From Patescibacteria group bacterium (GTDB lineage: Bacteria; Patescibacteriota; Microgenomatia; UBA1400; PJMF01), in the NCBI GenBank assembly GCA_018816385.1, contig JAHIVK010000054.1, forward strand, positions 1 through 44,636: 44,636 nucleotides of DNA. The letters are read 5' to 3'. Position numbers and translations under genes: made by a program. Of the stretch, positions 29,042 through 29,295 are shown piece after piece. Position 1 is the stretch's first letter. The number at the start of each line of letters is the position of its first letter. The notes under the pieces were generated by a model. The model did not search any database. It was not told the origin of the DNA and saw nothing but the letters and a program-made list of their open reading frames with translations.

Positions 29042-29115
29042 GGGTCCGTAGCTCAGTTGGTTAGAGCGACAGCCTTTTAAGCTGTGCGTCCCGGGTTCGA
29101 GTCCCGGCGGACTCA
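29042..29115 (+). tRNA. tRNA-Lys (anticodon UUU)
   Basis: Full cloverleaf: acceptor GGGTCCG/CGGACTC, anticodon stem ACAGC/GCTGT with loop CTTTTAA, T-stem CCGGG/CCCGG; 3' CCA not encoded. Confidence 0.97.
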
Positions 29116-29119
29116 CTTT
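29099..29119 (+). repeat. 21-nt direct repeat, copy 1 (tRNA-Lys 3' tail)
   Basis: gagtcccggcggactcacttt, exact match to 29275-29295. Confidence 0.95.
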
Positions 29120-29120
29120 C

Positions 29121-29273
29121 TAAAATAAGTCGATAGAATATCGACTTATTTTAAAAATGATCCTACGGATCAAACCCATGTCTTCAATAAAGACTCATCT
29201 TTATTGAAGACACGGGTTCCCCCGAAATTGATCTTAATCAATTTCGGGACTAGTCCCGAATCGAAGATTCGGG
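29121..29273. other. Run of five adjacent inverted repeats
   Basis: 29121-29153 (15-bp stem), 29158-29172 (6 bp), 29173-29218 (~21 bp, one mismatch), 29221-29248 (12 bp), 29255-29273 (8 bp); 29246-29257 GGGACTAGTCCC bridges the last two. Confidence 0.9.
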
Positions 29274-29274
29274 G

Positions 29275-29295
29275 GAGTCCCGGCGGACTCACTTT
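29275..29295 (+). repeat. 21-nt direct repeat, copy 2
   Basis: gagtcccggcggactcacttt. Confidence 0.95.

Follow-up and report, generated by a model that had tools for sequence, protein, structure and literature searches.

A hairpin-filled insertion at a bacterial tRNA-Lys gene as the probable ORF-less derivative of a small tRNA-invading GIY-YIG element

Introduction

In a 44,636-nucleotide stretch of DNA from a Patescibacteria group bacterium, which is called the window in what follows, the end of a tRNA-Lys gene is found twice, on either side of a run of hairpins placed between the tRNA and mutM. How did this tRNA end come to be duplicated, and what is the DNA in between? An earlier note, made from the letters alone, had compared the repeat to those left by integrative elements using tRNA 3′ ends, had remarked that the interval is too short for an integrase, and had left three options for it: a minimal non-autonomous tRNA-targeting element, an excision scar, or a structured RNA. 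We analysed the locus by comparison with its relatives.

Results

Repeat and hairpins at the tRNA-Lys locus

The tRNA-Lys(ttt) gene, the putative target, is intact (29042–29116, + strand, as are all features below; ARAGORN, Rfam tRNA score 70.2 bits). A 21-nt sequence, GAGTCCCGGCGGACTCACTTT, was found exactly at 29099–29119 and again at 29275–29295, an offset of 176 nt, which leaves an interval of 155 nt (29120–29274). The repeat has an 18-nt core, which runs from the T-loop to one nt beyond the discriminator. This core consists of the final 18 nt of the gene (29099–29116), the retained tail, and of a displaced copy, GAGTCCCGGCGGACTCAC (29275–29292), from which identity extends through TTT to 29295. 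This additional TTT is probably due to chance, because the element of the second copy described below starts with TTT, and its right flank does not.

Five hairpins occupy the interval (approximately 29117–29157, 29158–29172, 29173–29218, 29221–29248 and 29255–29273). The leftmost, with arms TTTCTAAAATAAGTCGATA and TATCGACTTATTTTAAAAA, lies immediately 3′ of the tRNA; it is followed by a small one, TGATCC-TAC-GGATCA, which recurs in elements of two other genomes (G086 and G089), and by a central hairpin with a 4-nt loop. The last two, GC-rich and with an ACTAGT joint, are located at 29220–29274 and interrupt the displaced tail in its T-loop (TTC|GA); the 5′ half of its T-arm, GGGTTC (29214–29219), precedes them and is identical in the two other copies described below. 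A palindrome, GGGACTAGTCCC (29246–29257), spans hairpins four and five. The earlier note had described the 21-nt repeat and the five hairpins with their bridging palindrome, and both were found exactly where it had placed them. Folded as RNA, the region reached −127.6 kcal/mol, compared to a mean of −73.9 for shuffled sequences (z = −10.35), and none of 200 shuffles folded as well. No Rfam match to a group I or group II intron was found in the window or in loci L052–L054.

A full-length relative in the same genome

Searching the genome of the window with the interval revealed a second place, on a contig (C76) with different flanks. There, tRNA-Ile(tat) is followed by a left hairpin, the word ACCCATGTCTTCAA, an ORF, the word TTGAAGACACGGGTTC, the right-end hairpins and a tail repeat, GAATCCCTCCCGACTCAC, which matches tRNA-Ile and not tRNA-Lys. 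Between the two copies, right-end identity is 90% across 96 nt, and 92% across 84 nt with a second query. The ORF of the Ile copy codes for a GIY-YIG protein (Pfam PF01541, E = 8e-15). In the window, the two words that flank it pair with each other as the central hairpin, and of the ORF only its start is left: from an ATG at 29157, a remnant (29157–29207) reads MILRIKPMSSIKTHLY*, which corresponds to the nuclease start codon and the codons right after it, the remainder being deleted. The ORF of the Ile copy begins MSQMDRPMSSKK. Between the window and Ile copies the arms show a compensated change (AAAAAAG/CTTTTTT versus AATAAAG/CTTTATT), and one pair in the first right-end hairpin is likewise compensated. 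As both element sequence and the truncated ORF start are still there, the excision scar is not supported as an option.

Copies and empty sites in related genomes

A third copy, bearing its ORF, was found at a tRNA-Lys(ctt) gene of Candidatus Microgenomates bacterium (WFTH01000047.1, genome G029), an independent assembly from another genus of the same family. Its nuclease ORF shows 62% protein identity, and the element comes with a 19-nt repeat of its own tRNA-Lys(ctt). In this lineage, the tail repeats at three different tRNAs are exact and 18–19 nt long. The full-length layout consists of an AT-rich left hairpin after the tRNA, a single ORF of about 85–90 codons, whose two complementary ends pair into a stem, and GC-rich hairpins that interrupt the displaced tail in its T-loop. 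This ORF codes for a single-domain GIY-YIG protein in which Y9, Y20, R30, H34 and E66 are invariant among full-length copies, so that a homing-type endonuclease domain with its catalytic residues is present in these and lost from the window copy. The left stems of five lineage elements are perfect, about 12–18 bp long and at the same position, and their sequence is unshared; these hairpins were folded singly, a MAFFT alignment being unsuitable for pair counts on such stems.

In G029, as well as in G016 and G030, the tRNA-Lys(ttt) gene upstream of mutM has a single tail and no repeat. We concluded from these empty sites that the window carries an insertion, next to which the host tRNA gene was spared. 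No occupied/empty pair was seen within one species. The repeat is not confined to one assembly, since it is found on a second contig with other flanks and in the independent assembly G029. The earlier note had advised searching related genomes for the interval, and this did bring out the same module beside other tRNAs, Ile(tat) and Lys(ctt); the integrase that it had thought of for longer versions was absent, and a GIY-YIG nuclease was found instead.

Further ORF-less copies are present in the genome of the window at tRNA-Met, tRNA-Ala and tRNA-Glu, which indicates that ORF loss is common.

The copy at a tRNA-Met(cat)-like gene (L033, contig C15, 1599–1830) is of the tail type: the tail, CCTAGTCCCGCAACA, is repeated 147 nt downstream, beyond a hairpin-filled interval. 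Those at tRNA-Ala (L041, 1501–1574, + strand) and tRNA-Glu (L043, 1500–1572, − strand) are of the head type, with the 5′ part of the tRNA duplicated upstream of the intact gene. The head copy of L041 has a GC hairpin, CCCGCCTGCAACGC...GCGGGCAGG, in its D-loop.

Association of the nuclease ORF with tRNA genes

Used as a DNA pattern, the right-end hairpins matched only the genome of the window and G029 within the order, and no further genome among 389 drawn from the phylum. The class is thus masked when only DNA is compared, and the ORF was used instead. From a search of the order with the element ORF, 93 loci were examined, picked by similarity and not independent of each other; a tRNA lay within 250 nt on the same strand at 57 of these, and on the opposite strand at 3 (ARAGORN calls, largely on MAG contigs, with a distance and score thresholds of our own choosing). 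A scan of named genomes gave 80 loci, with 49 same-strand tRNAs and no opposite-strand one by the same distance. Hosts included Microgenomates and other CPR, Omnitrophota, Bacteroidetes (Flavobacterium, Pedobacter and Halpernia), Ignavibacteria, Planctomycetota and Margulisbacteria, among others. The relatives listed from phage records are distant, with 38–40% identity among those matches.

Two layouts were observed, either intact tRNA, ORF and tail copy, or head copy, ORF and intact tRNA. Beyond the ORF, a partial copy of the adjacent tRNA was detected at 78 of 103 tRNA-adjacent loci (insert-tolerant alignment, p ≤ 0.01). Copies reaching the tRNA end were found in 73 of 312 tRNA flanks of the retrieved loci, compared to 1 with reversed flanks, 0 with reverse-complemented flanks and 0 with the flank of another tRNA. 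Head copies begin at tRNA position 1 in 44 cases out of 50, and tail copies end at most 1 nt from the last tRNA base in 18 out of 27; in a few displaced copies the match continues into terminator or upstream sequence.

Two loci, L060 (1400–2011) and L215 (1050–1520), are arranged in tandem, with a tRNA head, an ORF, a second head, ORF remains and the intact tRNA, as if a restored tRNA had been invaded a second time. At L099 (560–790), the part of tRNA-Cys from the anticodon to the 3′ end is repeated in tandem downstream with no intervening ORF, each unit holding the same two short palindromes.

Displaced tRNA copies contain 57 inserts, most of which are near-perfect palindromes (CCTGCCTGCCGGCAGGCAGG is one example). 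Of the 57, 40 fall in the D, anticodon or T loop, for an expected 34% (p = 2.6e-8, a generous value given that the loci are partly related). In the window, the displaced tail has the right-end hairpins in its T-loop, in the same manner as these class inserts. In Flavobacterium xinjiangense the palindrome was confined to its element; Pedobacter cryotolerans, the genome of L215, has CCTGCCTGCCGGCAGGCAGG at 22 sites when up to 2 mismatches are allowed.

A tree of 170 GIY-YIG proteins, built on few columns and with many unresolved forks, required 28 changes of tRNA association (43–62 with shuffled labels), 41 changes of tRNA isotype (48–55) and 16 changes between head and tail layouts (17–27). These counts, with tRNA association and isotype clustered on the tree, suggest that target preference is inherited. 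The relatives without a tRNA included YhbQ/UPF0213-like proteins, as well as ORFs located within rRNA genes, next to them or close to group I introns. By sequence, the closest solved structures are UPF0213 proteins and, weakly, the structure-specific nuclease SLX1.

Some of these relatives deserve a mention of their own. At L094, L106 and L102, element-related GIY-YIG ORFs are contained in a 23S or 16S rRNA gene or placed at its end, and these loci fit the non-intron rRNA inserts of PMC11270868. At L176, L178 and L179 (Omnitrophota and Planctomycetota), the GIY-YIG match (1201–1437) is between protein genes rather than at a tRNA, and the ORFs have an inverted repeat of some 13 nt on their two sides, CCCGCACCTTCTT and AAGAAGGTGCGGG, in the manner of a mini insertion sequence.

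Alternative explanations

These results lead us to consider that the window interval probably derives, with loss of the ORF, from a small, mobile GIY-YIG element that invades tRNA genes. The full-length relative in the same genome and the empty sites thus speak for the minimal non-autonomous element among the options of the earlier note. One alternative is the remnant of a conventional integrative element, with a tyrosine integrase acting at the tRNA-Lys T-loop, the repeat as attL and attR, and the middle lost. The extent of the repeat agrees with it, as the segment from the T-loop to the tRNA 3′ end is a known sub-location of integrases. Moreover, an insert between an intact and a partial tRNA is the usual product of these enzymes (PMC9897764). 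The full-length copies weaken this explanation: none of the three copies has an integrase, and the sole ORF is the GIY-YIG one. The same element end is associated with tails that match the tRNA-Ile or the tRNA-Lys of the host, which a simple attP × attB exchange would not yield, and in the class the 5′ end of the tRNA is also commonly found as a head copy. With a GIY-YIG ORF in the longer versions, and related ends at different tRNAs each followed by a repeat of its own host, the att/integrase framework implied by the earlier note is not supported, and we see only a very slim chance for such a remnant. A structured RNA, or a terminator or processing array, that evolved between tRNA-Lys and mutM, with a repeat due to local duplication, would account for the strong fold of the window, the compensated changes between copies and the terminator-like A/T tracts of the left hairpins. 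It is nevertheless highly improbable, because tRNA-Lys is next to mutM without the interval in relatives, homologous structure is found at other tRNAs with other neighbours, an Rfam search gave no family match, and the truncated nuclease ORF start persists. A structured RNA may be processed from the transcript, as the third option of the earlier note has it.

The exact repeats of 18–19 nt at three tRNAs of the lineage are what a fixed stagger predicts, and could have been produced as a transposon-like target-site duplication, through a pair of nicks spaced by about 18 nt, for which either the GIY-YIG protein or, with the ORF as a passenger, another enzyme in trans would be responsible. We consider this unlikely: across the class, copies differ widely in length and have the end of the tRNA as their outer limit (44/50 head and 18/27 tail copies), and the GIY-YIG ORF is the sole gene common to full-length elements. 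As a general rule for the class, fixed-stagger duplication was set aside on the basis of these variable lengths and of the outer limit, beyond which few copies extend. Misassembly could be invoked on the ground that the contigs come from a MAG, but it is refuted by the exact 21-nt repeat, the fold at z = −10, the second contig and the independent assembly, so that chance or misassembly has a negligible probability.

Discussion

The derivative of a tRNA-invading GIY-YIG element thus being the preferred reading, we infer from the comparison of copies a model which concerns the site of cleavage, insertion through repair, the origin of the duplication, current mobility and the role of the hairpins. 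The predicted nuclease would cut a tRNA gene in a conserved loop, at TTC|GA of the T-loop in the lineage of the window, and repair of the break would copy the element into the cut gene. One intact tRNA gene would be kept, and the other tail piece stranded beyond the element. In the window, deletion of the ORF between its complementary arms would then have left a closed hairpin together with the start codon and first codons, so that further movement would require the nuclease of another copy. Movement of the window copy in trans and loss of its ORF after insertion fit equally well. As for the duplication, the kept end may have been copied from the target through a stagger, carried in with the element, or restored at a later time; the exact tails matching their hosts at tRNA-Lys and tRNA-Ile speak for a copy taken from the target in this lineage, and the variable inner and fixed outer ends seen class-wide favour selection for an intact tRNA.

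We rate the window element as homing-endonuclease-like and intron-less, with a target gene that is preserved. Some points run counter to this reading. The intact tRNA retains its whole T-loop, so a target restricted to this loop would leave the occupied gene cuttable. Very small proteins without an additional DNA-binding domain are unusual as site-specific homing enzymes, and the GIY-YIG ORF may be a passenger. More broadly, we lean towards the view that single-domain GIY-YIG nucleases make up, together with their ORF-less derivatives, a class of mini-elements, widespread and so far undescribed, which invade tRNA genes via their loops and at either end, always leave one intact tRNA, and mark the displaced piece with loop palindromes. 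They may act on structured-RNA genes through loops or cruciforms in the DNA, and not through a long recognition sequence.

In the open-access literature covered by the search, no description of GIY-YIG elements in bacterial tRNA genes was found, and we regard their novelty as provisional. If the model is true, a large share of the short bacterial proteins annotated as "GIY-YIG nuclease family" would be selfish genes in tRNA genes rather than repair or orphan proteins. The elements would rank among the smallest autonomous mobile elements, inserting at essential genes in a gene-preserving manner, and would account for some of the partial tRNA genes now attributed to phage integration. The targets of single-domain GIY-YIG proteins, and the abundance of small inserts in CPR rRNA and tRNA genes, would become testable.

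Partial tRNA genes are commonly ascribed to integrases, and tRNA-targeting phages and ICEs likewise insert between an intact and a partial tRNA (PMC9897764). The elements studied here differ from these in having no integrase, in their size (0.2–0.4 kb, compared to several kb or more), in the frequency of 5′-end versions and in the use of one element end at several tRNA types. The T4 SegB gene is a free-standing GIY-YIG gene linked to tRNA genes and involved in intron-less homing (PMC2988022); it is located between phage tRNA genes, and the passages considered here describe neither duplicated tRNA pieces nor insertion within a tRNA gene.

A closer parallel for the preservation of the gene is given by the mORFs of fungal mitochondria, in atp6, atp9, cox2 and nad3 of Allomyces and Glomus (PMC3630166). 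An endonuclease ORF (LAGLIDADG, or GIY-YIG for atp9) is found there near the end of an essential gene, the end is duplicated and a complete gene is left. Unlike here, where both tails are identical, mORFs concern mitochondrial protein genes and the kept end is diverged and foreign; hairpins set in loops and ORF-less hairpin derivatives, both present here, were not described. The inserts in CPR rRNA genes, positioned at the tops or bases of stem-loops, have in common with the present elements their CPR hosts, structured-RNA genes as sites, non-intron GIY-YIG ORFs and many short ORF-less forms (PMC11270868); they were described outside a homing context, with neither tRNA targets nor a duplicated gene end, and a family link was examined at three rRNA loci. 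Finally, the ends of the window copy are not transposase terminal repeats, as those of MITEs are, and its mobilisation in trans is a possibility; as in MITE-like, non-autonomous derivatives, these ends are shared with a full-length copy of the same genome, at tRNA-Ile, and the ORF is absent.
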